From assembly GCF_000764305.2 (NCBI RefSeq), contig NW_025940959.1:62001-126000 (forward strand): a stretch of 64,000 bases of DNA, read 5' to 3'. The DNA comes from Hyalella azteca. Lineage: Eukaryota > Arthropoda > Malacostraca > Amphipoda > Hyalellidae. The position numbers and the translations under genes were made by a program. This document shows positions 323 through 42,148 of the stretch, one piece after another; within the stretch, counting starts at the first letter, position 1, and each line of letters opens with the position of its first letter. A model generated the notes under the pieces. That model was not told the origin of the DNA. It made no database searches and saw only the letters and a program-made list of their open reading frames with translations.

Positions 323-2596
323 CTTTAGAATTTATTCTCAGCTAAGTTATGATTTATAACCCAGGCGTTCAGAATGTACTAAGGAAATGGAGTTCTCACT
401 GACCATGAGGAAAGGAAAAGATCTTACTGATCATGAAGGAAGGAAATGGAGTTCTCACTGACCATGAGGAAAGGATGATCAATGCGCTGAAGGACGCGGT
501 TCTCGGTGAGTGTGTGCTCCACTTCATCCTTCTCGAGGATGACATCTTTACGCAGCATCTTGATGGCATAAATGTTACCTGAAGATTTTTCTCTGGCTAG
601 AACAACCTGACCGAACGTTCCTTGACCCAAACCACTGAGTAGTTCAAAGCTGTCAAGGGACTGTAACAAAGCAATGTTAAAAATTTTTCACTTAATATTA
701 TAGAAACAATTTTAGTTTATATTTACAAAATTCATGAAGCTAGGAAAGATGTATAACTAATATAATAGACAAGGAAGGTATATAGAATGTAAATTCTAAT
801 TTAATAATTCTGTAATTATAATTTAACAACTTCCCAGAATAATAATTTCTGACATTCTAACCACAAGATAAATAGCGTCAAACCTTGTTCTACTTAAACA
901 TGTTAATTTTGGTCGCCAAGCAAGTAGATATGAATAACATTGATAACAGGTATATAAAGTATCATTAGACAACGAGTTGACATAGGATATTATTTAATTT
1001 GAATCAATTTAATGCTAATATTTCAGCCACCAATTTTGGATAACATTCTTGTCTAAAATGAAGGCAGAATTCAATTTTGTACCGTTCCCAAAAGAAAAAA
1101 AACATCCATTAAAAGATATGTTTGCCACCAAGACTTCAAGATATCCTCCGCAATCCAGGGAGGAATTCTAGTGACGGCACTTAATACATTCCATTTCAAT
1201 CTAGCCTAGTTACTTGACCAGTTCCAAAATATTACATAAACATAAAAGATAAATCTAATGTCTGGCTTTTTGATCCAATATACTTAAATTGTTTCATATA
1301 TTACCCCTTTTGAATTCCTTTCTAATGCATGCCAAACTTTCCTAAAGATAAAGATACTTGCCAATTTCTTCTTCTTCTTGTAAGGCCCCATGGCAGTGGT
1401 ACCCTGAGGCGCAGGCAGGTACTCCACTCCGCTGTTGGCATCAGGGTCACCCGAGTCATCGTTCTCCCTGTCCCCCTCCTCAGTAGAACGAACTCCACCA
1501 AGTGCTAGGCCGCCATCACCGTCCTCCATTAAACTCTCCTTCACTCTCTCTATGGCCTCCACCCATCCATTTCTGCATGATCAGAACTATAGTTACTCAT
1601 GTCATTTGACTGAACAGACTTGGAAAAATGTTAATTAATGTAAAGACTCTTGATAGATATAATTTAGGAGGCACTTTCCACACTGAAGCATTAGAGACAG
1701 AGAAGGCAAACAATAATTTTTAAAAATCAGCATTACATGCGGATACTTTTTCCCCGTCAATGCCGAAGCATTCCTGAGTTAATAAATTTCCAAAAATATA
1801 ACTGATAGGCAATTATTTAGGCACACAAAATCCTTTCAAACAAAGAAAAAATAAAAATCCAGAAGCACATTTGAAGCTGTGAAGGCATTTGAGTGCTAAC
1901 CTTTCATCTTTGCTTTCGGCATTAAATTTACGTTCAATAACAGAAGTCCAGCGCAGCCCTCGAATAATGAATGTGTTGGCTTTAGGGATGTCCGTAGTTA
2001 ATGTCTGGCATCTCTGCAACAACAGAGTTACATTAGCATACTGCAGCACATCACTATGGCAGTAATTTCCCTTGCAAAGAATTTTTTCCCTTAATTTCCA
2101 TATTGATGACACAACTACCACACCCTGGGCAGTTATTAATTAATATAGAACATCATCAAGCCTCAATCTGCAAATTTGTTCCAATAGCTCCAATAAAAAT
2201 TCTATTATTAAGGAAATATAGTAAACATCCAAATTATTGGTATCTTTAACATGGAAATAAATTGCTGGAGCACAAGCTCTCAAAATCACAATTGCTAATA
2301 ATGAAAAAAGCCTAAATTATTGAAGGAAATAAGACTGGTTTTACTGCATTATTGCTTGCAAAATTGCAATAAATCATAACAAATTTAATGCATGTTCTTG
2401 CCTTAACTGTGAAAGTATTCAAAGGGTCAGTTAGATCTTGAGGAATTGTCTTGAATCCTAGAAGCATGCCATCGTCAAGGAGGTAAAAGTAGCGCTGCCG
2501 CCAGTTCCTGATGTACTCCCCTTGTTTGGAGAGCCAGCCTTGCTTCACTATGTGCTGGTCAGGAAGGAGAGATAATCTAGGACGACCCTCAGCCAT
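185..2596 (-). CDS. Akt: Akt (RAC serine/threonine kinase), partial gene, five coding exons
   Basis: Encodes the PI3K-pathway kinase that binds phosphoinositides at the plasma membrane through its PH domain and phosphorylates growth and metabolic targets. Exons on the minus strand: 2596-2402, 2013-1901, 1572-1362, 660-463, 322-185. The PH domain spans roughly residues 15-120, with [17 protein letters not shown] holding the basic residues K24, R33 and R35 that match lipid-contact positions of human Akt. A linker follows, then the kinase N-lobe with GQGTFG (about 185-190), AIK lysine about 207 and HTLTENRVL. The last visible exon holds [14 protein letters not shown] of the C-lobe. The exons for the activation loop, HRD and DFG are absent: only 140 bp separate 463 from 322. 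The C-terminus lies beyond position 1. A splice acceptor (ttttcag) 13 bases before the ATG shows an upstream 5' UTR exon. Family assignment is certain; the broken middle is either assembly loss or a real deletion. Confidence 0.95.
381..475. repeat. Triplicated Akt exon-4 donor junction
   Basis: The last bases of Akt exon 4 plus its donor (on the plus strand cactgaccatgaggaaagg, 457-475) recur almost exactly at 398-416 and in decayed form at 425-443. The first copy is 35 bases identical, spaced 59 bp away. The copies fill most of the 140-bp space between the two kinase exons. Confidence 0.85.
463..660 (-). CDS. Akt: Akt coding exon 4 (kinase N-lobe)
   Basis: 66 codons after the acceptor gttacag: glycine loop GQGTFG, catalytic lysine in YAIKMLRK, and [14 protein letters not shown] with the helix-C glutamate, ending at HPFLM before GTCAGT. 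The donor and last exon bases are repeated twice just downstream (see the entry at 381-475). Confidence 0.95.
1362..1572 (-). CDS. Akt: Akt coding exon 3 (end of PH domain and linker)
   Basis: Begins after catgcag with [10 protein letters not shown], the C-terminal helix of the PH domain. An acidic, low-complexity linker of about 50 residues follows, ending in a KKKKK run. It ends TTG|GCAAGT, a strong GC donor. This gives phase 0 and the junction [10 protein letters not shown], which lines up with the start of the kinase domain. The GT four bases later gives an immediate stop in the next exon. Confidence 0.9.
1901..2013 (-). CDS. Akt: Akt coding exon 2 (PH domain, second half)
   Basis: Acceptor gttgcag, then [20 protein letters not shown] and [17 protein letters not shown], the conserved second half of the Akt PH domain. 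The donor is AAAG|GTTAGC, phase 2, and the split Arg codon is completed by the first base of the exon at 1572. Confidence 0.93.
2402..2596 (-). CDS. Akt: Akt coding exon 1 (PH domain, first half)
   Basis: 65 codons from the ATG at 2596-2594 to NTFTVK, ending phase 0. The next bases are GCAAGA, a GC donor. The only nearby GT (GTTAAG, five bases earlier) would delete two residues that Akt proteins keep before the RCQ of the next exon, so the GC donor is preferred. The start is supported by homology: the lipid-binding segment begins at residue 17. Confidence 0.93.
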
Positions 2597-7945: not shown

Positions 7946-8113
7946 TAACTTCTGTTTTGTCTGTTCCACATGGATGATCTTAGTTGCCTTACGGGGTCTG
8001 GTTTTGGCCCACCTGTGGTGCTTGGAGCGGCAGGGGCTTGTGTTGGGGTCCTCGTAGCATGTCGCGCGCGTCTGCTGATATCGTGCGTGGGAAACGCGCC
8101 TGTATAACATAAG

Positions 8114-9027: not shown

Positions 9028-12000
9028 GTGACTTGATGTGTGACTTGATGTGGGACTTGACGATGTGTCAGTGTGACTTGATGTGTGACTTGATGTGTAA
9101 CTTGACGATGTGTCAGTGTGACTTGATGTGTGACTTGATGTGTGACTTGATGTGTGACTTGATGTGTGACTTGGTGTGTGACTTGATGCGTGACTTGTTT
9201 TGTGATTTGTTGTGTGACTTGATGCGTGGTTTGTTGCGTGACTTGATGTGTGACTTGTGTGACTTGTTGCGTGACTTGTTGTGTGACTTGTTGTGTGACT
9301 TGTTGCGTGACTTGTTGCGTGACTTGTTGTGTGACTTGATGTGCGGCTTGCTGTGTGACTTGATGCGTGTCTTGTTGCGTGTCTTGTTGCGTGTCTTGTT
9401 GTGTGACTTGATGTGTGACTTGATGTGTGACTTGATGTGTGACTTGATGTGTGATTTGATGCGTGACTTGCTGTGTGACCTGATGATTGACTTCATGCGT
9501 GTCTTGTTGCGTGACTTGATATGTGACTGATGTATTACTCTATGTATTACTTGTTGCGTGACGTTGTGTGACTTGAATTGCATTGTACCTCACGAGTCTG
9601 CGTTGATGGTCGGAATTTGATTGTTGGAAAATGCGGCAATACAGTAAAGCTGCTCGCGTCTCCTCATACCGGAACTCGCGCTGAAATATGTCCTATAAAG
9701 ATGTACGAAAATTACAGGAAAATCGCGCAAATAATGTAAAGCGGTTAGCTGTTCCTAAAGTTCAACGATGGAATATCCCCGCATGGTCGCTGTGCTGTAT
9801 TCATCGCGTCTGTATTTATAGTCATTTTCATTCATTGCGCCTGTATTTATAGTCAATTTTGTATGAATGACGCACTCGAAGGTGCTACTCGTACTTGTAG
9901 CTAAGAAAGCGTGTCATCGGGACAATGCGAACCGGTCATTTTTCCGAGTGCTTCCTTCGAGTCGTGTGCTGCACTTGCGATCGCACGAAAAGATTTTCCA
10001 AAACTGCACATGCATGATTTTTCTGTAGCTACCTTGCGTTGAAAAATTGCATTTTTTCTAGGAAATACCGAATAGTTCAGTGCATTTTAAATTTTTATTC
10101 TTTCCTATTGTGAATGAACGACCATTGAGTAACGGATATGTGTGATCCCCCACCCAGCGTCTTATCCACCACCTCCACCTTTCGTTCTCCCCCTACTCAT
10201 CCCCCTCCACCTCCACCACACCCTCCCACTCTCCCAGCAAGATCAATGCTGTGCCATGTGCCGCATTGCACCGATCATCCCGTGTATGAGGTGCTGTCAT
10301 TCATGAGGCTTTGTCATTCACGAGTGTTCGTCATTCATGAACTCTTATATTAAATCACGAAGAAGACCCCGCTGAATTATTGCAGACTCGAGTTCCTATA
10401 TTNCTGTCATCTAAAGCCTTTGAAAGAAACTCGTATTTTTATTTAAAGTAGCTGTTAGAGAATGAAACATGGTTATGTCAGTAGAAAGGTGAATATGTCG
10501 TTCAATTGTATCTATGAACATAGATACTTTGATTAAAATTCTTTTTGCCCTATGTCACAAATCTAGATGAAAATCATTGTTTAGTTTCTACATTGGATTG
10601 GGGAGCCAGAGGGCAAAACAGATTATTGTTATAAAATGTTCGAAAAGATAGAACGTTAGGAACGTTTACATACATGTGTCTGGCAACTATTACCAGCTGC
10701 AGCGACAGCTGCGGCAGCACCTGCTGTCTCGTTCCGGCCTCAAGGCTCGAAGTCTCGAACTCAGTTGAGCGCTGGCGGTCGCTGACGGTGGTTATAGAAG
10801 TGATCTTAGTGATATGTCCAAGAGCTTAGCCGAGATGGTCAATTCAGAAAATGATTTCTTTGAAGGTGTCGAAAAACTTTTGGAGGTTTGGTTCGTGCGT
10901 AAAGATGGCAAAACTTCGAATTGTGATCTACGTAGAATTTCAAGGTAAGATATACTAACAAGCTAAATTCTTTTGTTGAAGCAATTTTACTTCACCGCTC
11001 CCGGCTTACCCTGGCCTGAGCTCATGCCTCATGCTCGTGTGATGCGACTGCCTACACCGGTTTTTTTCTTGGATCATGTTACTTTTTATTCTCTCTACAC
11101 GATTTATGGACTGATTGTGAGATATTTACATTGATGGATTTAAGAGTTTAATCTATATTCATCTAATAATATTTTTTCGGCCTCGATTGGACCAAGCAAA
11201 CACGTGGCTGAGCCATGGCAATTTCATTTCTGTATCTTGTTGGATGTTGCCATTCGCCTGTCTGCCTCTAATCAGAGGAATAGGAAGCCGGCAGAAGGCA
11301 ACGTCTGTCTGGGCTCTGGCGCCTGCCTCCACTTGGTGATAAATCTCAAGTGTATCGAATTCTGGGCTGATATTTTTTTCTGAAAAATTGTCGGTTTAGT
11401 TTATTAAAAATTTTCTATGTAAAGAATTTGGGGTTGATATTGTTTTATATAAGACTTTTATCTCATTGTTTTTATTCAATATATTTTAACTTGATTCTTA
11501 TGCTCAAGTTTTAGGCTCTATTGTTTAATTGTGATTTATGAGCATTAAAATTTATGAGGTTCTTTAATTAAATTTTTAAGTTTAAGACTTTAAAAGTTCT
11601 GTCAATTAATGAGTGATCATTACTTTCTTCATTCTTCCCATATTTTTATGTTTGTTTTTAACAATCAAATTCTACTGCCATTACACTATAAATTCACTAT
11701 AGTATACAAGCTGTCGAAAAAAAAATAAAAGAAGCTCTGCTGACATTGCTTGATTCGGAAGCTTTTTCATGCGGCTTTTAGCATAAATTTGAATAAGTAA
11801 TCAAAGGCGCAGGAATCTGTAGGAAAGTTTTCCAAAGATGAACAATAAGTACTTGTGTAAGCTTCAGCTGTGTCAAGGACACGACGGTTTTGGTGATGGT
11901 GCGACCACCTAACGCGTGCAGTGGTTACCAACTTGCGTGCTGTACGTGGGTGACACTGACCGGCAAGGCAATGCGAGGTGCTAAAAGCTTCGCCTAATTA

Positions 12001-24000: not shown

Positions 24001-26821
24001 CTGTACTACTCACGCAAGAACTTCAAGCGGCCAGAACTTCAAGTGTCTCCTCATCGCAGCTTCAAGGAGGAGGCCGCCATCTTAGACGCTCTCTTCTCCA
24101 GTTAGTGTTTGAATACATTTAGTTTCCCCTTCTGAATATACAATGTATTCATTGAATTTATTCCGAGCTCATATCCGTTTGTTGATTTTGTTATGCATGC
24201 TATTGTTCTGTAGCTTTCTTTAGCGGGAGATATGGCCTATCATGTCACTCAGATTGTTAGCGTCTTGCACCGTGAGAAAATCAAGTATATTATGCGTTAA
24301 AATGCATTTATGACTTATTTTCCCGTAATGAACGCTACTCTGATGAGAATATTGTTTTGCCAAATGCACGCATAAAAATATAAATATCATGCTTCGTCAC
24401 TATGTTTTGAATAATGTTAAACATGCGGCGGGTACGTGACACAAAATATATCAATTTTATAGTTTCACAAAATTTTACAGTACTTAAAGAAAAATTTACA
24501 GATGGCCGTGGATACTGCAAGGGATGCCTGACCAGAGTAAACTGCTACAAAATAATATATTCGCTGAAATATCCGTTTTATTTCTGCAGTAATAAAATAT
24601 TTGTTTAATTTCTGCACAAATAAAATAGCAAATATATTTTTGCACTGACAAAATATATATTTTATTTCTGCAATAATTTAACTTTCTTGAAGAAAAATTC
24701 CCCGATTGCTGAGCATACTGCATGGGTACTGGACAACCTGATTAGGGGGTGTACTGTTACGACACAATGCTGAAAATTCATCTTATTTTTGAAATGGTAG
24801 AAGATATGTTCCATTTTTGCTATAGATTTAGGTTTAATGAAGACAAACTTGCAGACGGGCGAGCATACTGCATGGGCAGCCTGAACAGAGCAGACTGCTG
24901 GTACCTGTACACAGCCTCCCTCTCTGACGGCACCGCCGCTCCCCTCGCCCTTCGTAACGACCGCGCCAAGAAACACATGGAGTCTGACCAGACACTCGAG
25001 GTCCTCATGACGGATCTGGATAAGGATAAAATGGCACACTTCTTCCAAGTGAACTGTGGCTCTGCTGCTGAGGCTACCAGGGTACGCTGACGCTGAATAT
25101 AATGAGTTTTATTGTTGCACAAAATTTTACAATTTAGGAAAAATTTACAGATGGTCGTGGGTACTGGGACAGCGCTTGTGTTTGGTTTTTCCTCATATTG
25201 TATTATATTATTTTCAGAGAAAAGGTCTCTTCATTCGGGTATATTTGAAAGCTAGAGGAAAATATACAAACATTTTTGTTTATTTATCCATCATTTATTA
25301 TATATGTCCTTCCATTTATTGAACCATTTTATTTGAAAAGAAAAATTGTGTTCAATTTGGGATCTTTGATTGGTAGAGGAAATCACTTTTTTCTACATGT
25401 TGACACATAATTTGTGCATAAGGATATGTTTTGATAAGGAAACAATTAAAATAAAGATAGCTCGTTGACAATTTTGTGTACTTGGGCCAATTTGAGATAG
25501 TTCGTCGAAATTTTTTGTGTACTTAGATAGACCAATTTGACTCGTGTTTCTGTTAATGTTTTCATTATCTCGTTTTTGCAGCGGTCTGGCATCGACAAGC
25601 TGGTCCCTGGGGTCGTGATCGACGACTACCTCTTCGAGCCCTGCGGCTACTCCATGAACGGCGTCATGCGCTCTGTGCCTGTCAGTTGTTTACCCTCCTT
25701 CTTCTGTAGCTTCTTTACCGTCCTCAGCTTAAATCCTCCCGTCTTTTGGCTTCTTTACCGTCCTCAGCAATCCTCCTGTCTTTTGGCGCAAATTTTTGAA
25801 TTTTTCCTCTCGCAAATTCTGAAAATATCTGATTTTTCCTGCAACTCTTCACTAGTTGCATCGTCCGAGTGCGGTTCACCTATTAGGACTGATCTCTTAA
25901 CATCTTCTCATCTAGATTATTTAACCTGGATGAAGGATAAATTACTTCATCAAATAGATATGGTTCTTTCTACAGCAGTTCCCCTACTAGAATCTTATAA
26001 TAATCGGCATACTTGTATCGCATTGCTATGCCATTGTATGATGCTACATGTATTCATTTACTTCTAAGTGATCCGCGTCATGAATATAAAGAATTAAAGA
26101 TTAATGAGAACTATTTCCAGAATAAATAGATTAATGAGAACTATCTTAGAGCTACAAGATTAATGAGAACTATCTTTGTGTACAGGGAGGATATATGACC
26201 ATCCACATCACGCCTGAGCCGGCGTTCTCGTACGTATCCTTCGAGACAAACATCCCACAGAAGTCCTACAAGGACCTCATCCTGCGCGTGATCAAGACCT
26301 TCGGCCCCAAGCAGTTCGTCGTCACCTTCTTCAGCAATAGTGTATGTTAATTACCTCAAATGTGACAGAATATTTCTGTTATGTAATTACTATCAATATA
26401 TGAAATCAGGATACTAAATGTCTCGAGTATATAGTTTCTAATAATTCTATCACTAAATAATATTTGCTAGTGCTGGAAGCAAACCCCTTCGATGTTTTGT
26501 GATTAGTTTAATGGTTTTTAAAGGAACTTTTACGCACGTATTAAAAACAAATATTCTCAGTACATATCACTTGTCCGATCATCTTGTGTATTCGCCATGG
26601 TTATGTCTCATTATCTCAATGAAGATTTTCAACCATGTAAACTAATGTTAGCTTGTTGAAACACTAAATTCATAATTTTTCAGGAGACTGGCACCCGCCT
26701 GGGAGAAGAGGATAAGTGCCAAGTTCCCCTGTGCCACAACTACGATGTGTCAGATGTACAAGTGTGTCAGCTGCCAGGCTACGACCTAACCTACGCGCTC
26801 TACAACAGGACTCCCAGTTAG
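8941..26821 (+). CDS. AMD1: S-adenosylmethionine decarboxylase proenzyme, eight coding exons, exon order disturbed
   Basis: Makes decarboxylated S-adenosylmethionine, the aminopropyl donor for spermidine and spermine synthesis, in the cytosol. Coding exons in protein order: 10814-10944, 8941-9027, 19732-19858, 23998-24100, 24855-25081, 25582-25680, 26186-26341, 26684-26821. All phases agree and give 355 residues (human about 334). Visible features: [13 protein letters not shown] with the active-site glutamates (E17, E20); the self-cleavage site in [11 protein letters not shown], between E74 and S75, where Ser becomes the pyruvoyl group; C89 in LKTCGTT; CGYSMNG with the processing serine (about 249); and HITPEP with the processing histidine (about 265). 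All key residues are present, so the enzyme should be active. Exon 2 precedes exon 1 in the window, best explained by misplaced contig 10404-15396. The stop TAG is followed by a long in-frame open region (next gene entry). Confidence 0.95.
9028..9535. repeat. 12-bp minisatellite starting exactly at the AMD1 exon-2 donor
   Basis: Around 40 units of gtgacttgatgt and variants (gtgacttgttgc, gtgtcttgttgc). The first unit is the donor site itself, so each unit carries a potential GTGACT donor. Long frames on both strands here are repeat artefacts. Confidence 0.9.
9437..10402. repeat. Duplicated segment B, first copy (end of contig)
   Basis: Matches 15398-16571 with substitutions and indels. It ends at the N at 10403, and its partner begins right after the N at 15397. 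Overlapping contig ends or diverged haplotypes explain this better than a true tandem duplication. Confidence 0.85.
10403..10403. other. Assembly join (single N)
   Basis: One N. The sequence to its right restarts at 7262 (segment A). Confidence 0.95.
10404..10742. repeat. Duplicated segment A, second copy; probable AMD1 promoter/5' region
   Basis: Copy of 7262-7600 placed immediately upstream of AMD1 exon 1. It holds three E-box-like hexamers (cagctg twice, cacctg once) within 35 bp near 10694-10728. The regulatory role is inference. Confidence 0.8.
10814..10944 (+). CDS. AMD1: AMD1 coding exon 1
   Basis: Starts ATG at 10814, giving [20 protein letters not shown] and then [12 protein letters not shown]; ends TCAAG before GTAAGA, phase 2. 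A second in-frame ATG (10835) is seven codons later and is nearer the usual length before FFEG, so either start is possible. I see no short upstream reading frame like the vertebrate polyamine-sensing one in the 70 bases before the ATG. Confidence 0.93.
10945..13491. other. AMD1 intron 1 sequence, no gene seen
   Basis: AT-rich, no coding frame with recognisable content and no long array. Confidence 0.5.
13492..13760. mobile_element. MITE-like element with ggaccaagg ends
   Basis: Begins ggaccaaggttgccag and ends ctggctaccttccttggtcc, an imperfect inverted pair. Its interior (tttttcggccaaatt) resembles the elements at 8619 and 40194. Noncoding. Confidence 0.55.
13861..14025 (+). mobile_element. 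Copy of the tgggtcat MITE family (left end)
   Basis: The motif cagaaaaaggaatgggtcat, then cacaagggcaaaaagtgcat, matches the fuller element at 18105-18425. Confidence 0.55.
14350..14648. repeat. About 80-bp minisatellite, four diverged units
   Basis: Units carry ttgttgctaaaatcacatgt, tattttcaaactgtgctct and gcttgtgcaatctt(g/c)caaga. Confidence 0.7.
14649..15396. other. Contig end, nothing recognised
   Basis: AT-rich noncoding sequence up to the second N. Confidence 0.4.
15397..15397. other. Assembly join (single N)
   Basis: The sequence to its right restarts inside segment B, equivalent to position 9437. Confidence 0.95.
15398..16571. repeat. Duplicated segment B, second copy
   Basis: Counterpart of 9437-10402. 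Relative to that copy it has an insertion near 15868-15955 resembling part of the tgggtcat MITE family (tcctgacccagttcggttct), and an expanded short repeat (attcacgagtct) at 16375-16480. Confidence 0.85.
16745..17090. repeat. 27-bp minisatellite with internal dyad
   Basis: About ten units of gcctcactcacactgagtgt plus agttttt. Each unit contains the dyad acactcacactgagtgt, so single strands could form serial hairpins. Confidence 0.9.
17212..17545. repeat. 21-bp minisatellite
   Basis: About sixteen units of atcctatggtgataaatccc with small changes. Confidence 0.9.
17707..17963. repeat. 16-bp minisatellite
   Basis: About sixteen units of gcaatctctcagtgta(c/g), very homogeneous, hence recent. 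Confidence 0.92.
18105..18425. mobile_element. MITE with tgggtcat-type inverted ends
   Basis: The left end cacagaaaaactaatgggtc is answered at the right end by actatgacccatatatttct. Inner arms repeat the theme: gatgacccacat and atgtgggtcatc. Noncoding. Related partial copies lie at 13861, 15868, 19446 and 62609. Confidence 0.7.
18426..19445. other. AMD1 intron 2, no gene seen
   Basis: AT-rich, only short low-complexity runs. Confidence 0.4.
19446..19585 (+). mobile_element. Partial copy of the tgggtcat MITE family
   Basis: actcagaaaatgaattggtc, then cctcacaagggcaagaaatg. Confidence 0.5.
19580..19712. repeat. 18-bp AT-rich minisatellite just before AMD1 exon 3
   Basis: About seven units of attaaaagtcattaaattg, ending 20 bases before the exon acceptor. 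Confidence 0.85.
19732..19858 (+). CDS. AMD1: AMD1 coding exon 3 (pyruvoyl cleavage site)
   Basis: After ctgtgcag, C plus [19 protein letters not shown], ending SSGHDAVQ, phase 0. It contains the Glu-Ser self-cleavage bond and the catalytic Cys. The end is drawn at the first of five equivalent donors; use of a later one would add 8, 16, 24 or 32 residues in frame. Confidence 0.93.
19848..19978 (+). repeat. 24-bp array of the AMD1 exon-3 end and donor, five in-frame donors
   Basis: Unit gacgccgtgcaggtcagtta plus tacg. GTCAGT donors begin at 19859, 19883, 19907, 19931 and 19955. Because 24 is a multiple of three and the frame stays open (DAVQVSYT per unit), every donor gives the same phase. 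Confidence 0.93.
20548..20690. repeat. 43-bp minisatellite, three units
   Basis: Units of gttaatagcttgttcgcatt plus ctggacacgaagaaaaatatgtg. Confidence 0.85.
20931..22304. repeat. Direct duplication of about 0.6 kb in AMD1 intron 3
   Basis: 20931-21578 and 21763-22304 share gggttaagatgacccag at the start, tcgtatttataatgacaagc-like sequence in the middle and gcgaataatcatgctta at the end, with moderate divergence. Inside the first copy a short unit (tcactcatatctctgggtca) is itself repeated. Noncoding. Confidence 0.8.
22305..23679. other. AMD1 intron 3, nothing recognised
   Basis: AT-rich; scattered short frames without recognisable content. Confidence 0.4.
23680..23997. repeat. 35-bp minisatellite ending in the AMD1 exon-4 acceptor
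   Basis: About nine units of cacaatactactcgaactaa plus tactttgtcctcgt. The real junction (tcacag then ACCTGTACTACTCACGC) resembles a diverged unit, so the array seems to derive from the acceptor and first exon bases. Confidence 0.8.
23998..24100 (+). CDS. AMD1: AMD1 coding exon 4
   Basis: [20 protein letters not shown] and [14 protein letters not shown], matching the YSRKNF region of the family. It ends with A before GTTAGT, phase 1, and joins the next exon to make Asn (FSNGRAYCMG). Confidence 0.94.
24481..24746 (+). repeat. Two decayed copies of the AMD1 exon-5 acceptor and exon start
   Basis: 24481-24548 (tttacagatggccgtggata and onward) and 24685-24746 (gattgctgagcatactgcat and onward) resemble the true exon 5 start (gcagACGGGCGAGCATACTG) over about 60 bases. 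Neither keeps a usable frame or donor. A shorter third copy lies at 25138-25175. Confidence 0.75.
24855..25081 (+). CDS. AMD1: AMD1 coding exon 5
   Basis: [20 protein letters not shown], a variable loop rich in Ala and Asp, then [20 protein letters not shown] and EATR. Acceptor cttgcag, donor AGG|GTACGC, phase 0. Confidence 0.95.
25582..25680 (+). CDS. AMD1: AMD1 coding exon 6
   Basis: 33 codons, [20 protein letters not shown] then [13 protein letters not shown], with the processing serine in CGYSMNG. Donor GTCAGT. A 43-bp direct repeat (cttctttaccgtcctcagc) follows at 25709-25790 in the intron. Confidence 0.95.
26090..26185. repeat. About 30-bp tandem repeat ending in the AMD1 exon-7 acceptor
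   Basis: Three units of gattaatgagaactatcttt. The last runs into gtgtacag, the acceptor; the first ends in tttccag, a second acceptor-like site. Confidence 0.8.
26186..26341 (+). CDS. AMD1: AMD1 coding exon 7
   Basis: 52 codons, [20 protein letters not shown] through VVTFFSNS, with the conserved HITPEP histidine. Donor AGT|GTATGT, phase 0. Confidence 0.95.
26684..26821 (+). CDS. AMD1: AMD1 coding exon 8 with stop TAG
   Basis: [20 protein letters not shown], then [16 protein letters not shown] and TAG at 26819-26821 followed by G. Length and motif agree with the family's C-terminus. The next stop in this frame is not until 28283. Confidence 0.92.
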   Translation, partial: ETGTRLGEEDKCQVPLCHNYDVSDVQVCQLPGYDLTYALYNRTPS

Positions 26822-32367: not shown

Positions 32368-35300
32368 GTGAGTCATCATAAGTTTCATCATTTTGACACA
32401 CATTTACTTAGAATCACTAAGTAGTATTCACTTTGTGATACACTAAATAATAGGAGAAAATTTTGTTAAATTTAAGCATCTTTTATTTCAAGGTTGCTGG
32501 AGTACTTGATTTTTTCACATACTTTTTGAGCTTTGCCCCAGTGATGGAGAGTGTGAATGTCAATCAGTGATCTCTACATGTATATTTTAAGCATGTATCA
32601 TTGTACATATATTTGTACATATATTGAGATCATTTAACTAGTTTGAATATCTCTTAATTTTTCAGACACATTCACTGTGGACCAAGCTGTCAATGCTCTG
32701 GGTTTTGGGAAGTTCCAGGTAAGTGAATAGTACGGTATCCTTGGCTATCTCTATTTGGTCTAATGGAATAGAATTGAATTTTTTATTGCTTTTTATCGGT
32801 AATATTGAATTTTTTTATATGAAGCATCTACCTATATTCAGAAAGTGACGAGAAAGGAAACGAGAAAGGAAACGTACCTATTTGTAGTCATTTGTTAATA
32901 TGTAAGAAGTATTTTTACAAGTATTTCTTTTAGCTAGCAATATCTTTGGAAAATCTGTCAATGTAGTTAAGCTGCAAGATGAAATTGAAAATTAATTTTT
33001 AATTGGGAATACAAGTGTCAAAATTGTTCTCTGACAAAATGAAAAGAACTGTACAGTTAGACCATGTACATATCTGTTGACTCAAATGATAAAAGAAAAT
33101 TTAGCCTCTCTCCCAATGAACCACTCTGCTAACTAAGCTTCTGTTCACTCGTGTTATTTTTCATTTGCAATGTCAGTAAATTAAAATTATAGTTTCTCTT
33201 CAATAATAAACCCATATTTTTTTATTAAATTTGCACATGTCAAGGAGAAATCTCTTTTGAGAAATTGAATGATATAAAAAAATGAAAACAATTATTAATA
33301 AAATGCATTTCTGGTTTTCAATCAGTTTCGCATCAGAAAACTACACCTGCTCAGTAATATAAAATGATTTACTAATAGTTGAGTTCAAATGATGCAGGTG
33401 AAGCTCTCTCTCATCACTGGGCTATGTTGGATGGCAGACAGCATGGAGATGATGATACTTGCCATACTCGGGCCATCCCTACGCTGCACATGGCATCTCT
33501 CCGAGTGGCAGCAGGCTGGCTTCACTACAGCTGTCTTTCTAGGTCACTTTTCAGTCCAGAACTTTTATCAGTTACCTATAACTGCTCTTTCCTTAACCAT
33601 TTATCACTGCATAATTTTATTAAGTAATAATTGTAACTATTGTAGGTACAGATACTCTATGCAACTTGAGAAGGGTGAAGTATATCTATACCTACGTAGG
33701 TTGTCACCGAAATCTTGCAAAAGTTTTGGTGCAAATCAAAATAAGAAACTAATTGGCATCATAATTATCATTTTTTTAAGAATACATAGCTTATTATCAT
33801 CGCAATTTGTATATAAATGTCTGGTAAGTAAAGTTGCTGTTAGTAGACAAAAAGTAAATAATTAAATTACTTTTTTATATCATTCATTTAACCTATTTAC
33901 AAAGACACGAGTTTGAATTCACGGTTAAGTGACATGAAATCAATCAAAAACTTAGCACCTTGTTTTAGAAGACAAGTCCATTTTAATATTGCTCTATTAT
34001 GCATTCATATTACCCTTGTCTACAGGCATGATGTTGAGTTCATCATTTTGGGGCACACTGTCAGACAAATATGGCAGACGTCGCTCCCTCGGCCTCGCCA
34101 GCGTCCTGCTGGCGTACTGGGGCCTCATCTGTGCCTTCGCTCCCACCTTCGGATGGCTGCTCCTCCTTAGGGCCCTTGTTGGATTTGCTATTGGCTGCAT
34201 ACCACAATCGTGAGCAACCACATGTATTGCTTATTGTTCTTCATGCCACAATCGTGAGCAACCACATGTATTGCTTATTGTTCTTCATGCCACAATTGTG
34301 ATCATAAACTTGTATTGATTATTATTCTTCATATAACAATAGTGAGCAACCACTTGTATTGCTTATTATTCTTCATAACTTAATAGTAAGCAACCAGTTA
34401 TAGGTATATTATGCTGCATCTTTTCCGTCAAATTGCATGATCTTAGATTAAATTTTGATTTAAGGCCAAAACAAAAATGAGCTTTTTGTTGTTGCTGAAA
34501 GTACAATATTAAAAAAAGAGAAGTGTTGTAAAAAACACTTTAAGCTGGCTTTACGAATAAAGGCTTGTCATGTGAGTGACCCATAGGTATTATTTGTTTC
34601 GATTCTCTTTGCTTATTGTGTGCATTATTGCTTTGATCTTGCAGCTCTGTGGTTGTTTTTTTTGCCTGCTGTGCAGTTACTTTGTGGAATTTTTTATTTA
34701 TACAAATTTAATTTTTATTTATGAATATTTAGCAAATGTTGCCTCTTTACATGCTTGATTATGGAACTAATATTGTTTTACTCTTGCATTATTCACTGAG
34801 CTTTAAAACTGAAAACATTTACTACGCCGCTTTATTTGCCTTTGAAACAGAGTAAAAATGCATTGAACAGATTGTATTTAATACTTACTACCTACACTTA
34901 GTGATCATGAGATTTGTTATTTATTTTTATACGTTTTGCTTTCTATTGATGTGGCGTGCTTTGCTCACTGTGTTACCCTATATGCTGAGTTTACCCTATT
35001 TGTTCACTCAGTTTACCCTATTTGTTCACTCAGTGTTGCCCTATATGCTGAGTTTACCCTATTTGTTCACTCAGTGTTACCCTATATGCTGAGTTTTTGC
35101 CTGCAAAACAACGAGGAAAATGTGTCGTCTTGTTGGATGTGAGTAACGTGCATTTTATTGCATGATTTTATTATTCATCTATTTCTTGTTGAAATGTTTA
35201 CTTCTGTTGATGATCAAGTATACTGCTGTAATAACGTGATTTTTTTATGTTGTACAACTCAATGAGACTAACCACTTGTGATGGCTTTTCTCTAAATTTC

Positions 35301-38300
35301 CATTATGATTACAAATAACTCAAAATCATATGAATGAATTTCTGAAGATAAATGACCTCAATGAACAAACTTGATATTGTTCCCTGATCCTTGCTCCTCC
35401 TAATGGAATAATGTCTTAGTAAGTCAGTCTTATCAATCTTCTTTTCACGATGTTTTTCATTTAAGAGAAGTTTTTATAATTAAAATATGAGATATATATT
35501 GTGATTGATTGGATATTTGTCATTTTAGTACAGATTAACGAAATTTGGTCTTGGTGACGCAACTCAAAACAGGATGAAGGCTCTAGACGTAAAAATGTTT
35601 TGAATTATGATATAGAACCGAATTGCCTGAGAAACAACTTGCTCATTTTCTTTCATTACTGTATAATAATTGAATTGATCAATAAATAACCTGATAATTT
35701 TGTTAGCATTATTGTATAATAATTACGATGCTTGATAAATAATATTTTTTTTAATACATATAATATTTACACATACATTTAACATTTATTTAATAACATT
35801 TAAATTTAAATAAATGAAATTCACATCATTAAATAACTTGCTAATTTTGTTAGAATTATTGTATGGTAATTACATCGCTGGATAAAAAACACGTCTCTAA
35901 TATGTTATTATTATATTAGCATAATAGTTCTGAATTGTTTATTACAATAATTTCAGTATAAAAATTCTAACGTGTTTATTACACTAATATTAGTATAATA
36001 ATTCTGACGTGTTTATTACATTAATATTAGTATAATAATTCTGACGTGTTTCTTACAATAATATTAGTATAATAATTCTGAACTTTATCACAGTTTTTCT
36101 GGGCACTAGGCGCGTGCATGATTTTGATAATTAAAAAATGAGATAGGTATATATTGTGATTGATAGTGTATTTGTTATTTTAGCATAAGTTAAGAAAATT
36201 TGGTCTTGGTGATGCAACTCAAAACAGGATAAAGGCTCAAGACGTAATAATGTTTTGAATTGCCATATAGAGTCTAATTGCTTGAGAAATAATTTGCTCA
36301 TTTCTTTCATTTCTGTATAATAATTGAATTGCTCAATTAATAACCTGCTAATTTTCTCAGTGTTATTGTATGATAATTAGGTTGCTTGATAAATAACATT
36401 TTGATTTTGTTATAATTATTGCATATTGATTGAATATGTCAATAAATAACTTGCTAATTTTGTTGGTGTTATGGTATGATAATTACATTGATTGATAAAT
36501 AGTGTTTTTATCCTGTAATAAATATTGCATAATTATTCAATAGCTCCATTAATAACTTGTTAATTTTGTTAGAATTATTGCCTGGTAATTACATTGCTTG
36601 ATAAAAACTTCATTAATTAGTTACAATATTAGTATAATAATTTTGAACTGTTTATTACAATAATATTAGTAAAATAATTCTGACGTGTTTATTACTGTGT
36701 TTCTGGGCACTAGGCGCTTGCATGTTAGAGTTATTGTCTCTCAATCACATTGCATGATAAAAAACTTCATTAATTAGTAAAATATTAGTATAATGATTCT
36801 GAACAGTTTATTATTACATTAATATTAGTTTAATAATACTGCAATGTTTATTACCATAATATTAGTCTAATAATTGTGAACTTTCTGACAGTGTTTCTGG
36901 GCACTAGGCGCGTGCATGGAGGTGGGGCTGGCTATGCTCGTGATGCCCTCCTTCGGCTGGCCTGGTCTGCTCGCCCTCAGCGCCCTGCCCTCTCTGCTCT
37001 TCGTGCTCGCATGGCATGTGCGTGCAATATTTATACGTGTTATTTATAGAAAATATTAAGGTAGAATATTTATCAATGTTATTTATAGAAATATTAGGGT
37101 AGAATATTTATCAATGTTATTTATAGAAAATATTAGGGTAGAAAATGTATCAATGTTATTTATATAAAATGTTAGGGTAGAAAATTTATCAATGTTATTT
37201 ATAGAAATTGTTAGGGTAGACAATTTATCAATGTTATTTATAGAAAATGTTAGGGTAGACAATTTATCAATGTTATTCGTATAAAATGTTGGTGGAATGT
37301 ATTATTTTAATGTTGCTATTTCTATCCTAAAAGCTATTTCTGTTAAAAGCTAGAAAATGTATCAAATGGATGTTGTTATTTATTTATAATCTGCAAATTG
37401 TGTCATAAATTCTTATATTTCTGTTCAAAATTTAGAATTCCTTTCGAAGTTAGTGAATGTATCATTTATAATTTTTTATTTTTTGTCATGCTATTAATTT
37501 TATCATTCTAATTTATTTATTTCAATTTAAAATTAAAAATTAAGCCTAACAGCATTAAAAAGAAAAAATTTGGGATGATGGGCCACCGCTTGCTTTTGAA
37601 ACTTTTTAATGAGTTATCGTGTTAATGAGTTTTTTAATGGAATGAGTTATCTTAGCAACAAAATGGTGTAATAACTTTAAATGCTGAGTTGAATTTTTTA
37701 TTTTCCATGATTTGTTTCATGAATTCTGAAAGTTTATCTCTGTTGCCCCAGTGGCTCCCTGAGAGCGCCCGCTACGATGCATCGTCCGGGAATTCAGAGA
37801 AAGCTTTAGCTACGCTGCAGAGCATCGCCACGCAAAATGGCAAGTTTTATATTTAATTTATAAATAGTTATTTCCATTATCATTGATTTATTATTGTTAT
37901 TATCTTGGATTTATAGATGATTAATTTAATTATCTTTGATTTATTATGGTCACTGTCTTAATCGTTGTTGACTTCTACAGTGAAAGACTTGATGCAATCA
38001 AATAGTGCTAATAATTATATGATTAGTGCAAATAAATATAATTGTTCTTTGTATTCATATGATAGCATGTCAAACGTAAAAGTCAGCGTCAGCCATAAAG
38101 TGTTAGAATTTGTAGGCAAGACGAAAATTTGTAAATTTAATATAGATACCGACATAATATTTATTGATGATAACAAAGATATTACCGTTGTATAGATACA
38201 TCAGTTCTGTGTGTGGTTGATAAGGTTGCTCTTAGGTCTCGTGCAAGAGAGGGAGAATAACAATAATAATAACAGCTCAAACCCATTGAAATTTTAGTAC

Positions 38301-41300
38301 CTGTATGTTGTACGATAAAAATTCCTTTATTCGCAAGATGGATACTAGCATGTTTTTTTGTTCACCTTAAGGATGTTAGTATGACATTTCATGGTCTAGA
38401 GAGGTGAATGTACGTCCTTTCCAAGAAATAATTACACCTCATATAATAAATATACTAACATGCTAGATTATAGGAATATAACTAATAAATAATAATCCTC
38501 GTTATACAGGACAGCCGATGTTGCTCGGACGTCTCATCGTGGACGACATGGCGCAGATAAGCCGAGGCAGCGTCAGAGACTTGCTCCTACCTCCTCTTCG
38601 CTGGACCACCCTGCTGCTCTGGTTCATCTGGTGCGTGCACAATGGTTCTTTTGCCTGGTGCATTATGGTTCATTTGGCTGGTGCATTATGGTTCATCTGG
38701 TGGGTGCACAATGGTTCATTGGCGTTTATTCAGTGGTTCATTTGGCTGGTGCATCATGGTTAATTTGGTGCGTCCAGAATGGTTCATCTGGCGAGGTCAA
38801 AATGGTTCATTTGGCTGGTGCATTATGGTTCATTTGGTGGGTGCACAGTGGTTCATTTGGCTGGTGTACAATGGTTCAGTTATTTGAGTATTTTGTTGAT
38901 TGAAGCAACAGAAGCATGGATAATTTGATGGGTAAAACATGGCATATAGAGGCAGCGTCAGAGACTTGCTACTACCTCCTCTGCGCTGGACCACTCTGCT
39001 ACTCTGGTTCATCTGGTGCGTGCAACGTGGTTCTTTTGCCTGGTGCATTATGGTTCATTTGGTTGTGCATTATGGTTCACTGGCGTTTATACAGTGGTTC
39101 ATTTGGCTGGTGCATTATGGTTAATTTGGTGTGTGCACAATGGTTCATCTGGCGCAGGTCGCAGTGGTTCATTTGGCTGGTGCACCATGGTTCATCCATT
39201 TGTTGAGTGAAGCATGTATAATCTGATGGGTAAAACATGGCATATGTGCTGGTAGAATAAGCATCAGGTGTGCTGACTCCTGGCTCAACTGGCGGGTAAC
39301 GTGTAGTTCATCAGACTAGTCCACATTTTTCACCTTACATTTTAAAAATATACTAAGAACCAAAATAAATACCATATAATTTTGTAATGTATACGGGCTG
39401 ATGAATTCTGATCTTCAGCCATAGCTTCTGTTGTTCATCACGATGATTTATCGACATGTTTCACTGCAATCTCGTATGATTAAAGTTGTTTAACCTTGTC
39501 GTATTTTGAGGTTATCTCAATATGAGTACACTTTCTTTCGGCATTGGTTGTGAGATTTTGGCTCTGTGTTACTAAACAGTTACAATAAACAGTTAGTACA
39601 GAGTTACTTCTCTATGTTACTATCACAGTTAAGTAAGAGTTCATTGATGCAGTTAAGTAAGACTTCATTACAATACTACAGGTGTTCGTGCACGTTCTGT
39701 TACTACGGCGTGGTGCTGCTGACGACGGAGCTGCTGGAGGCGAGTGGTGATCTTTGTGGCTCCTATGAGGGCCTGGACGACGCGTCCTCCTGCACCGCCG
39801 CCTGCAGGCCTCTCACGCAGGCCGACTACACCGACCTGCTCTGGACTACCTTGGCTGAGTTCCCTGGTCAGTGCTTTATGAAGCGTGAAGAATTAATGAT
39901 CATTAATTAATATGTAATATTTCAAGGTAATATTACATTTTTTTTAATATTTGTAATATTAATTACAAATTTTTGTAATATTAATTAAGCTATTAATGTA
40001 AAGCGAGCATAGCAGGGTGGCTCCAGCCAGGGCTATGTTGCGAAACGTGAAATTTTCGAATCTTCAAACATTCAGCTATTTTTCAACCCTCGCCAGACAG
40101 CATAATTTTTCAACCCCCAAAGAAATAATGATCTCTGGAGCACGTACTAGTGATGGAAAAACTGGGGGATAAGAAATAGGGATATGAAAAACAGGTTGCC
40201 TAAAATCGGTCAAATCCGAGAACAAAAAAGGCCGATAACTCAATATATACTAGTTTTTTTGTAGGTTCGGCTATAAAAATTCCATTCATTTCCTCTTTGT
40301 AGTATTTAAAATATAATTAGGAAGTACCCATATCATAAATTTTAGCCTGCCAACGCAATTGAGAAAAACTAAATCACGGAATTTGTCCGGAAAAATGACC
40401 GTCTGGCTTTTCGTGGACTGCATCGACGGTGTCCTTGGGGAACAGGGCTGGCCCGATCAGTGGGGCCTTCACTGGATCTGATACCAAGTCGGAGGGCTGC
40501 ATGCCCACGGAGACTTCTTCGCGGCATTTAACTTTGTTAACTCCGAGCTCTAATTAGATTGTTTTCGTTCCTCAAACGAAAATATCTCTAGTGTCTTTTT
40601 GATGATAAGTATATCAGCTTACCTCTAGTGTCTTTCTGATTGTTTTTTCACTACTGTCTTGCATGAATACTTCTCACCATATTTTTTGTACTATTTTCCT
40701 CCAGGGATACTGCTCACCATTTTCATCATCGAGCGTTTAGGTCGCAAGAAGACCATGGCTTTAGAGTTCATCATCTTCACGGCTGCCATCGTATTTCTCT
40801 TCTTCTGCGCCTCGGGGTGAGATTGACTTGTCTCCTTCTACATGCTTTGGAATGAAGTGATTGCATGAAAATTTTTTCTTTATGTCTCTAACTATTGCTA
40901 TTCTTTACCATTGCATATTATGCCTCAATGGAAATTTGTGAGTTAAAACATTATTTATATATTGTCGTATTAAGCCAATATTTGAACTATATATTAAAGT
41001 AACTTTTTCTTAGTATGTAACAATTTTTTATGCTAGCCTGAATTTGTACCGTTTCATCTTGATTTAACCGATTAAATGTATTAATAAATACTCGTCTAAT
41101 CAAGCTTTCCTCGTTCCCACCCTTTGCAATAATTACTACGACTAATTATACGCTGCGAGCAGGCGCGGATGGCTGACATTTATTCTGTTCATCGCCCGTG
41201 GCGTCATATCCGGCGTGTTCCAGGCGGCGTACGTCTACACTCCGGAGGTAATTAATAGTACATAAGTGGGAGGTAATTAATAATACATAAATGGAGGTAA

Positions 41301-42148
41301 TTAATAGTACATAAATGGGAGGTAATTAATAGTACATGAATAGGAGGTAATCAATAATATATAAATAGGAGGTAATAATACATAAATGGGAGATAATTAA
41401 TAATATATAAATAGAACGTAATTGGAAACAAAGCTTGAATATTCGACGGAAAAAAGAGCACCATCAAAAATGGTAATAATGAAGTTTTCACAGGGTCTGA
41501 AACACATTTTAAACTTTATCTAAATTTCTAAAGTCTCGGTTAGCATAGCCCCACGCAGTTGCAGTGCACCGCTTTTGAAATTAATTTCAACCTAAAACCG
41601 ATCTCAGGAGTATTTTGTCCTTCAAAATTAATTTATCTTGTTTGGAAATCGGGAAAGATATTTGTACTCGGCTGGCTATACCTGGCTGTAAATGTCTATA
41701 TATTATTTAAATTATTTATATTTCTAAATAATTTATTAAAATTAACCGTACTGCTACAGTTTTACCCTACGGGCTGTCAATGCCTATATATTATTGAACT
41801 TATTTAATATTTCTAAATAATTTGATAAAATTAAACTTACTACCACAGGTGTACCCTACCGGCTGTCAATGCCTACCTATATATTATTTAAATTATTTAA
41901 CATTTTTAAATGATTTATTAAAATTGAACTTACTACTGCAGGTGTACCCCACCTCGCTGCGTGCGGTGGGGGTGGGCACGTGTTCAGGTCTGGCGCGTCT
42001 GGGGGCGATGCTCACGCCCCTTGTAGCGCAGGTGCTACTCAGGTCCTCTGTACACTTCGCCACGGCCATCTACGCTATTGTCGCCATCCTCGCCGCCGTC
42101 GCCGCTCTCTTCTTGCCCATCGAGACCAAGGGCAGGGCCATGACTTGA
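32133..42148 (+). CDS. SVOP: SVOP-like major facilitator transporter, complete, 12 coding exons
   Basis: Synaptic vesicle 2-related protein, a 12-helix major facilitator family member of vesicle membranes; its substrate is not settled. Exons: 32133-32367, 32666-32718, 33398-33542, 34026-34209, 35075-35138, 36892-37017, 37752-37839, 38510-38630, 39682-39866, 40705-40816, 41163-41247, 41942-42148. All phases agree, giving 534 residues (human SVOP about 548). A Ser-rich cytosolic N-terminus is followed by [14 protein letters not shown] and [18 protein letters not shown]. The sugar-porter-type loops are [13 protein letters not shown] after helix 2 and [13 protein letters not shown] after helix 8. 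LPESARYD precedes the central loop, and [11 protein letters not shown] ends the protein. A Cys-rich loop (SGDLCG to CRPL) fits the luminal loop of the family. SVOP is favoured over SV2 by length and the absence of the large SV2 luminal loop. Intron 7 uses a GC donor, and many introns carry arrays copied from their own splice sites. Confidence 0.93.
32666..32718 (+). CDS. SVOP: SVOP coding exon 2
   Basis: [18 protein letters not shown], a signature of SVOP just before helix 1. Donor CAG|GTAAGT, phase 0. Confidence 0.95.
33398..33542 (+). CDS. SVOP: SVOP coding exon 3 (helix 1 and start of helix 2)
   Basis: [20 protein letters not shown], then [20 protein letters not shown] and GFTTAVFLG. Donor G|GTCACT, phase 1. 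Confidence 0.95.
34026..34209 (+). CDS. SVOP: SVOP coding exon 4 (helices 2-4)
   Basis: [20 protein letters not shown] (motif A of the superfamily), then helix 3 and [13 protein letters not shown]. Donor TC|GTGAGC, phase 2. Confidence 0.95.
34199..34400 (+). repeat. 47-bp array copied from the SVOP exon-4 donor
   Basis: The first unit contains the last exon bases and donor (ccacaatcgtgagcaaccac). Three or four further units follow at about 47-bp spacing, progressively diverged. Confidence 0.88.
34970..35090 (+). repeat. Array copied from the SVOP exon-5 acceptor
   Basis: Units of gttaccctatatgctgagtt and accctatttgttcactcag occur before the exon. Acceptor-like cactcag ends at 35011 and 35033 precede the real one at 35074. 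Use of the upstream sites shifts the frame or meets a stop. Confidence 0.88.
35075..35138 (+). CDS. SVOP: SVOP coding exon 5
   Basis: [20 protein letters not shown] then LD, matching the helix 4-5 loop (TLYAEFLP). Acceptor cactcag, donor GAT|GTGAGT, phase 0. Confidence 0.92.
35485..36420. repeat. Direct duplication of about 0.29 kb in SVOP intron 5
   Basis: 35485-35775 and 36125-36420 share aatttggtcttggtgacgca, caactcaaaacaggatgaag and the AT-rich tail. Between and after them, taatattagtataataattctg units form loose arrays (35930-36080, 36630-36880). Confidence 0.8.
36061..36726 (+). repeat. Two decoy copies of the SVOP exon-6 acceptor
   Basis: tttctgggcactaggcgcgt followed by gcatg occurs at 36097-36120 and with one change (gcgcttgcatg) at 36701-36725. 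The real exon begins with the same bases at 36892. Upstream contexts (atcacag, tactgtg) are also similar. Confidence 0.88.
36892..37017 (+). CDS. SVOP: SVOP coding exon 6 (helices 5-6)
   Basis: [20 protein letters not shown], then [20 protein letters not shown] and WH. Acceptor ctgacag, donor CAT|GTGCGT, phase 0. Confidence 0.93.
37018..37300. repeat. 36-bp minisatellite beginning at the SVOP exon-6 donor
   Basis: About seven units of atttatcaatgttatttata plus gaaaatattagggtag, starting within about ten bases of the donor. Confidence 0.88.
37301..37751. other. Rest of SVOP intron 6, nothing recognised
   Basis: AT-rich noncoding sequence. Confidence 0.4.
37752..37839 (+). CDS. SVOP: SVOP coding exon 7
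   Basis: [20 protein letters not shown], then TLQSIATQN, the start of the central cytosolic loop. The donor is G|GCAAGT, a GC donor. Only this site, phase 1, keeps the GQPMLLGRL frame of the next exon; the GT three bases on breaks it. Confidence 0.93.
38510..38630 (+). CDS. SVOP: SVOP coding exon 8
   Basis: [20 protein letters not shown], then [20 protein letters not shown], entering helix 7. Donor TCTG|GTGCGT, phase 2. Confidence 0.95.
38621..38885 (+). repeat. Array copied from the SVOP exon-8 donor, first block
   Basis: Units of about 26-36 bp such as tggttcatctggtgcgtgca and gcattatggttcatttggct. The first is the exon end plus donor. At least seven units. Confidence 0.9.
38940..39013 (+). 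pseudogene. Partial duplicate of SVOP exon 8
   Basis: Repeats the last 65 or so bases of exon 8 ([20 protein letters not shown]) and its GTGCGT donor. The four substitutions against exon 8 (CTC/CTA, CTT/CTG, ACC/ACT, CTG/CTA) are all synonymous. No acceptor places it in frame with exon 7, so it is called a partial duplicate. It is followed by a second repeat block (39004-39195). Confidence 0.75.
39004..39195 (+). repeat. Array copied from the SVOP exon-8 donor, second block
   Basis: Same units as 38621-38885 in nearly the same order, following the duplicate exon. A third partial unit (gatgggtaaaacatggcata) starts at 39226. The whole segment was therefore duplicated after the first array formed. 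Confidence 0.88.
39682..39866 (+). CDS. SVOP: SVOP coding exon 9 (helix 7, luminal loop, start of helix 8)
   Basis: [20 protein letters not shown], then a Cys-rich loop with Asp and Ala, then [13 protein letters not shown]. Donor G|GTCAGT, phase 1. Confidence 0.94.
40194..40408 (-). mobile_element. Inverted copy of the 8619 element
   Basis: Reverse complement of 8619-8836 at high similarity (taaaatcggtcaaatccgag at the start, gaccgtctggc at the end). Confidence 0.75.
40409..40553 (-). other. GC-rich coding-like patch in SVOP intron 9
   Basis: The minus strand is open and reads [40 protein letters not shown] and onward, with composition unlike the surrounding intron. No start, splice sites or family recognised. 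It abuts the transposon copy and may be a captured exon fragment. Confidence 0.3.
40664..40720 (+). repeat. Decoy copy of the SVOP exon-10 start
   Basis: tgaatacttctcaccat at 40664-40680 resembles the true exon start ggatactgctcaccat 40 bp further on. Confidence 0.55.
40705..40816 (+). CDS. SVOP: SVOP coding exon 10 (helices 8-9)
   Basis: [20 protein letters not shown], then [18 protein letters not shown]. It contains the second superfamily loop motif. Donor GG|GTGAGA, phase 2. Confidence 0.95.
41163..41247 (+). CDS. SVOP: SVOP coding exon 11 (helix 10)
   Basis: [20 protein letters not shown], then AAYVYTPE. Donor GAG|GTAATT, phase 0. Confidence 0.95.
41243..41412 (+). repeat. About 27-bp array copied from the SVOP exon-11 donor
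   Basis: Six or so units of ggaggtaattaatagtacat plus aaatgg. The first unit includes the GGAG|GTAATT junction. Confidence 0.9.
41671..41941 (+). repeat. About 90-bp array copied from the SVOP exon-12 acceptor
   Basis: Three units each with an acceptor-like end, then tgtaccctaccggctgtcaa and an AT-rich tail. The middle unit's acceptor (ccacag, 41843-41848) would give an in-frame, stop-free extension of 31 codons into the real exon. Confidence 0.9.
41942..42148 (+). CDS. SVOP: SVOP coding exon 12 (helices 11-12 and C-terminus)
   Basis: [20 protein letters not shown], then [13 protein letters not shown], helix 12 and [11 protein letters not shown] with TGA at 42146-42148. The C-terminus is shorter than in vertebrate SVOP. 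Confidence 0.95.

Follow-up and report, generated by a model that had tools for sequence, protein, structure and literature searches.

Gene content and splice junctions of the window

The window analyzed in this study, a stretch of 64,000 nucleotides of the Hyalella azteca genome (contig NW_025940959.1, positions 62,001 to 126,000), contains parts or all of three multi-exon genes, AKT, AMD1, and SVOP, from which a set of 44 splice junctions was mapped. AKT lies at the left edge of the window, in minus-strand orientation, and is represented by five exon pieces, which were placed by spliced alignment with two edges read by eye; one of its acceptor coordinates, 325, is approximately 3 nt off. The AMD1 draft shares 99% identity over 86% of its length with the annotated H. 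azteca protein P0001, and the SVOP draft is 96% identical to the annotated H. azteca protein P0121; both proteins are annotated on one 257,019-bp contig. AMD1 comprises eight exons, of which exon 1 is out of order at 10814-10944 and is missing from P0001, and the exon-2 acceptor was read at 8940. SVOP comprises 12 exons, as determined by spliced alignment to P0121, the species' own protein. The homologous-protein search did not find an AKT protein of H. azteca and returned only P0241 and P0242, and Pfam searches with 10 open reading frames of the window gave only matches below the cut-off.

The assembly is irregular at several positions. Two joins made by a single N, at 10403 and 15397, are bordered by duplicated sequence (7262-7600/10404-10742, 99.1% identity; 9437-9860/15398-15813, 93.6% identity), and these joins, together with the placement of AMD1 exon 1 after exon 2, represent a scaffold misjoin or an unmerged haplotype. 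The AKT codons for residues 216 to 322 of P0241 have no tblastn match in the window, though the flanking exons adjoin (179-466), and an AKT fragment for residues 370 to 386 is found at 8049-8099, approximately 8 kb away and beyond the gene start. Directly after the AMD1 stop codon lies an open frame of 487 amino acids (26822-28282), the last 437 of which have no Pfam match, and which includes a 27-bp minisatellite (27193-27271) that keeps the frame. An inverted interspersed repeat (8623-8837/40193-40407, 91.6% identity) and 1.9 copies of a 74-bp unit (46167-46307, 100% identical, adjoining a CT-rich array) were also observed.

Tandem arrays at exon-intron junctions

A preliminary description of the window, made by reading the sequence, had listed 14 junctions at which tandem arrays start or end exactly at the exon edge with a splice site in their unit. 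Ten of the 14 hold, eight as arrays detected by TRF and two as dispersed copies; two others are weak and two fail. The intron side of 8 of the 44 junctions lies inside a TRF array, i.e., at the donors of AKT exon 4, AMD1 exons 2 and 3, and SVOP exons 4, 8, and 11 and at the acceptors of SVOP exons 5 and 12. At 7 of the 44, exonic as well as intronic bases are covered (3 exonic and 6 intronic bases of the mapped junction), which makes each of them a tandem repeat at an exon-intron boundary. The arrays consist of head-to-tail copies with units of at least 10 bp, as expected of minisatellites, and the copies at the eight junctions bear the donor or the acceptor when read by eye. The word "exactly" has to be relaxed: the arrays are at the junctions, but their reach into the exon according to TRF ranges from 0 to 22 nt in the window (34 nt at a GRIN2 donor described below). 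The overlap with the exon is always less than one unit.

At the exon-4 donor of AKT (array 381..475, minus strand; exon 463-660), the unit of approximately 31 bp contains CTCATG/GTCAGTGAG, where the slash marks the boundary, and the 24-mer around the donor has an exact second copy. All of the following features are on the plus strand. The array at the AMD1 exon-2 donor (9028..9576) starts at the donor and is formed by approximately 47 copies of the 12-bp unit GTGACTTGATGT; it includes 0 exonic nt by TRF, and a second assembled version of it begins at 15398. At the AMD1 exon-3 donor (19847..19961), 4.8 copies of the 24-bp unit GACGCCGTGCAG/GTCAGTTATACG are found. The SVOP donor arrays have a 44-bp unit with CCACAATC/GTGAGC at exon 4 (34198..34396), the 23-bp unit TGGTTCATCTG/GTGCGTGCACAA at exon 8 (38620..39195), where the 3' part of the exon is copied again at approximately 38940-39015, and a unit of approximately 25 bp with GGAG/GTAATTAATAATACATAAAT at exon 11 (41244..41423). 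The two SVOP acceptor arrays have a 41/22-bp unit with TTCACTCAG/TGTTACCC at exon 5 (34988..35096) and three copies of an approximately 93-bp unit with CTACTGCAG/GTGTACCC at exon 12 (41679..41953).

The dispersed copies belong to two further acceptors. Around AMD1 exon 5 (24481..25175; exon 24855-25081), diverged copies of the acceptor and exon start are located at approximately 24502 and 25151, matching at 17 of 24 positions in the scan with the likeness extending into the exon, and no TRF array is present. Upstream of SVOP exon 6 (36061..36918; exon start 36892), two decoys at approximately 36094 and 36698 carry approximately 25 to 30 nt of exon; these copies are dispersed and diverged, and no TRF array lies over the junction. 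The weak cases are the SVOP exon-10 acceptor, with a single copy matching at 17 of 24 positions, and the AMD1 exon-7 acceptor, where the array stops 9 nt before the acceptor and exonic bases are not copied. At the SVOP exon-6 donor, the array begins 20 nt inside the intron and no donor copy was found; at the AMD1 exon-4 acceptor, the array stops 13 nt short and the exon start is matched only by short stretches. Derivation of the latter array from the exon start was considered and is unproven, given these short matches.

Real misjoins in the window (the two N joins, the misplaced AMD1 exon 1, and the displaced AKT fragment) raise the question of whether the arrays and duplicated junctions are artifacts of short-read assembly, which we consider very improbable. 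The copies in the junction arrays are mostly 74 to 98% alike rather than identical, with one exact copy in the AKT array, and the AMD1 exon-2 array region was in part assembled a second time, in a version 93.6% identical to the first; these differences therefore argue against assembly stutter. Like copies are also seen in a separately assembled second species.

The preliminary description was borne out in that array units contain splice junctions in unrelated genes, and the pattern recurs outside the window in an NMDA receptor 2 gene, an AMP-binding ligase gene, and two SLC9B2-like copies. For this second set (set 2), 13 H. azteca stretches were chosen by contig number before inspection, and three stretches were extended and two contigs added after codon scores showed genes and, in L001, arrays beside exons. 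Arrays cover about 11% of the 13 stretches. The NMDA receptor 2 subunit, the AMP-binding ligase, and SLC9B2 were identified by PDB sequence matches, and two further genes, which had no Pfam match, are presumably METTL24-like (L020) and aminopeptidase-like (L010). The latter two contribute 4 of the 45 set-2 junctions, including the weakest match (the METTL24-like donor, 19 of 24 positions, approximately 690 nt away). The clearest case is the GRIN2 donor array, with 4.1 copies of a 55-bp unit, 98% matches, and 34 nt of exon; the others include an acceptor and a donor of the AMP-binding gene and two SLC9B2 acceptors with two copies each. Several SLC9B2 junctions whose positions could not be fixed were dropped before counting (the exon-3 donor of copy A; the exon-3 donor, exon-4 donor, and exon 5 of copy B), and the position of the exon-c donor of the AMP-binding gene is uncertain. 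The two SLC9B2-like genes are adjacent on the minus strand (L006, L015, and L017; G000 C100 1-30000) and probably result from tandem gene duplication. Pfam searches with 10 open reading frames of the fetched loci gave one further piece, a zf-met match in L004, which was not used.

Background rates and the excess at junctions

In the window, 15.6% of the sequence lies in TRF arrays; the corresponding figures are 21% for introns (26,909 nt) and 2.5% for exons. Judged by raw coverage, the junctions are not special: 8 of 44 (18%) lie in arrays, against the 21% of intron, and in set 2 the figures are 6 of 45 against 14% intron coverage. This agreement is what would be seen if arrays arose everywhere and only exon edges were recognizable to a reader, with zero excess at junctions, an alternative that the preliminary description had itself raised and that is a serious rival. 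However, raw coverage misleads because a 47-copy array comes from one 12-bp seed, and it was rejected as a null since every copy within an array then enters as a chance of its own, which overstates the expected junction rate five- to sixfold. When seeds were placed uniformly in a simulation that rejects wholly exonic copies, the junction rate was 0.16 to 0.20 of raw coverage and 0.64 to 0.76 of the intron rate obtained after collapsing each array. The collapsed test is therefore fairer and slightly conservative, because the simulated junctions fall below the collapsed background.

With each array counted once, an excess of 2.4- to 3.6-fold appeared across the settings tried. In the window, the 37 arrays predict 2.1 to 3.1 junctions by seed counting, and an intron background weighted by inverse copy number predicts 1.9 to 3.3, compared with 6 to 10 observed, over 14 settings; a GC-matched background predicts 2.7 of 44, compared with 8. 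Letter-shuffled sequence gave 0 to 0.13%. For the window and fetched loci together, 14 of 89 junctions are duplicated within 700 bp, whereas 5.1 are expected (Poisson P = 0.0009), and the ratio is 2.5 to 3.6 at identity thresholds of 17 to 23 of 24 and 1.3 to 1.4 for exact copies (24/24). Young copies still show the excess (7 observed versus 2.7 expected at 22/24 identity), although it drops to 2 versus 1.5 at full identity. Persistence of arrays anchored on a conserved copy was rejected as the sole cause, as the excess remains at 22 to 23 of 24, though hardly at 24. Against this collapsed background, with its 2.5- to 3.6-fold excess at 17 to 23 of 24, pure ascertainment is unlikely. The enrichment over background that had been proposed is thus absent by raw coverage and present, among the 89 junctions sampled, once each array is counted a single time.

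Set 2 alone gives a borderline excess. Within 700 bp, 6 of 45 junctions are copied versus 2.2 expected (P = 0.023), and within 150 bp, 4 of 45 versus 1.3 (P = 0.045); P ranges from 0.012 to 0.077 across eight settings. Without the two weakly identified genes, a hand calculation gives 5 of 41 versus approximately 2.0 (P approximately 0.05). In a calibrated simulation, the mean for the window was 1.6, compared with 8 of 42 observed, and 0 of 400 runs reached 8. The corresponding count for set 2 is 4 of 40, or 2 of 40 versus a mean of 1.2 without two two-copy duplications unlisted by TRF; this simulation, whose null has uniform base composition, favors enrichment in set 2 through those two hits absent from the TRF list.

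These results bear on the possibility that exon-intron junctions are preferred seeds, i.e., that a property of the exon edge raises local duplication so that arrays start there repeatedly. The candidate properties are a step in base composition, a nucleosome edge, paused transcription or an R-loop, and self-similarity of the splice motif. The pooled count, set 2 taken by itself, and the calibrated runs for the window speak for such seeding, as does the comparison with splice look-alikes inside introns, of which 4 to 9% are duplicated after collapsing, whereas 12 of 71 true sites are (76 junctions minus 5 whose coordinates showed no GT/GC or AG). Two SVOP donors are, in addition, affected in both Hyalella and the amphipod Trinorchestia. 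On the other hand, the window was picked because of the pattern, the set-2 excess weakens without the two weakly identified genes, and stricter motif matching in the window raises the look-alikes to 8 to 16% (collapsed, strata of at least 9 sites), compared with 18% of junctions. Because look-alike sites are duplicated more than average, part of the excess may be due to motif composition.

The distribution by distance from the exon edge does not single out the junction either. On the exon side, none of the 635 positions located 60 to 120 nt inside the exon are duplicated by raw count, compared with 13% of those in the last 12 nt; on the intron side the raw figure is 14% at 0 to 12 nt, 25% at 30 to 60 nt, and 23% at 60 to 100 nt, followed by 15 to 18% at 100 to 400 nt, 25% at 400 to 700 nt (8 introns), and 20% beyond. 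No peak exactly at the junction was found in these bins, and the junction excess appears only with arrays counted once. Junctions were left unweighted in that count because each is a single ancestral point; when the inverse-copy weight is applied to them too, the 0- to 12-nt bin is at 5.0%, like the other bins (4.0 to 9.9%). An excess limited to the first approximately 100 nt of introns was reduced to a mere possibility, as the 400- to 700-nt bin is equally high. Preferred seeding at junctions is consequently a doubtful reading, and the systematic link to junctions that had been suggested shrinks to a modest excess over a seed-based null, drawn partly from the window that prompted it.

Decoy sites, related systems, and interpretation

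The explanation that we regard as probable is a highly active, largely neutral growth of minisatellites that splicing tolerates, with a modest and unproven preference for exon edges. Segments of 12 to 90 bp would be tandemly duplicated throughout Hyalella introns and then expand. A seed lying over an exon edge would be tolerated while the outermost copy (the first donor or the last acceptor) still splices, so that surplus copies may accumulate on the intron side as decoys and exon-ward growth would be removed by selection. Junctions would then end up in arrays at a rate close to the intron coverage, and with only the intron side free to grow, an exon overlap of less than one unit is as expected. 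The 2.4- to 3.6-fold excess may stem from splice-like motif composition together with arrays that stay visible for longer when anchored on a conserved master copy; increased duplication toward intron ends is a third possible contributor, a weak one given that duplication is again 25% at 400 to 700 nt. The near-equality of junction and intron coverage, the flat profile at the junction, the duplicated look-alike sites, and the retained decoy bases agree with this tolerance explanation. The uniform-seeding simulation, which predicts junction rates well below those observed, speaks against it, as do the excess among young copies, the low GC-matched expectation, and the recurrence of the two SVOP donors in Trinorchestia with different implied unit lengths.

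The arrays appear to create decoy splice sites, as the preliminary description had proposed: their copies carry donors or acceptors, and the GT/AG bases are mostly intact. In imperfect copies, 110 of 118 decoy GT/AG bases are kept, compared with 905 of 1,056 bases at other positions; the decoys are therefore not purged. Relocation of intron boundaries, which had also been proposed, was not seen in Hyalella. P0001 and P0121 splice at the outermost, exon-proximal copy at all seven array junctions that they cover. It is extremely improbable that selection retains the extra splice sites for splicing regulation or for protein length variants. The slightly better preservation of decoy GT/AG and the AMD1 exon-3 array, whose four decoy donors are identical at CAG/GTCAGT, in frame, and open with 8 amino acids each, agree with such selection, but 10 of the 11 decoys checked at SVOP exons 4, 8, and 11 lead to a stop codon or frame shift, and the copies are not independent of one another.

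The SVOP prediction of Trinorchestia longiramus (P0122) doubles the end peptides of exon 8 (WFIW) and exon 11 (YTPE) and is alone in this among 120 listed SVOP proteins. At the exon 8/9 junction, the prediction includes the extra copy as an in-frame insert of 11 amino acids, which is a further point in favor of selected length variants. The doubled ends correspond to two of the three SVOP donors with arrays in Hyalella. The Trinorchestia units implied by the peptides are 33 and 36 nt, compared with 23 and approximately 25 bp in Hyalella, and this difference in unit length suggests that the exon-8 and exon-11 arrays arose separately in the two amphipods. The T. longiramus genome was assembled from Illumina data, and its tandem repeats are reported at 6.18% (PMC7062882). 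Exon edges might be recurrent birthplaces of minisatellites in amphipods, with the conserved junction as a permanent master copy that repeatedly sheds tandem copies into the intron and with arrays born independently at the same donors across families, a reading that we advance only tentatively. If it were true, a sizeable share of introns would start or finish with a series of nearly identical decoys, and the spliceosome would have to select the outermost one.

In human genes located in segmental duplications (PMC2812944), boundary minisatellites with approximately 30-bp units and approximately 4 copies are able to change splicing. The Hyalella minisatellites likewise sit on exon-intron boundaries, where in-frame decoys would have the potential for alternative splicing; unlike the human arrays, which belong to recent, primate-specific paralogues and vary between them, they occur in conserved genes, at 14 of 89 junctions, and their surplus copies extend into the intron. 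Intron gain by tandem duplication of an AGGT segment (the Rogers model; PMC4974935, PMC2891723) similarly copies a segment bearing a splice site. In Hyalella, by contrast, junctions already in place have been duplicated into introns that were also already there, and no novel intron was seen among the mapped array junctions, which connect exons of conserved proteins. Dual-specific splice sites (PMC10809524) also involve repeat units with a splice motif, and genes with tandem repeats have more introns of this kind than expected; in UBC, each unit is a coding monomer and a single AGGT acts as donor and acceptor alike, whereas the Hyalella arrays copy one site type. To judge from the mapped models, each array junction would serve as a donor alone or as an acceptor alone. 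Duplicated sites could also let a boundary move, as in intron sliding between nearby sites (PMC2891723), but the annotated Hyalella proteins retain the outermost boundary. A literature search found no report of junction-seeded arrays in amphipods.

In the genes sampled, approximately every sixth or seventh exon edge has been copied into the adjoining intron, which places decoys beside working sites. If a sixth to a seventh of junctions bear such near-identical extras, they would form a natural library for studying spliceosomal choice between equal sites, in which the required donor adjoins the exon and intact rivals follow at 12- to 55-nt steps inside the intron. Shifted boundaries and new introns may also arise from the arrays. 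They are a warning for gene annotation as well, as the Trinorchestia SVOP model already contains an extra copy. In the AMD1 prediction of Chionoecetes opilio (P0003), peptides are repeated 52 residues apart, which likely reflects an exon duplication or a model error.
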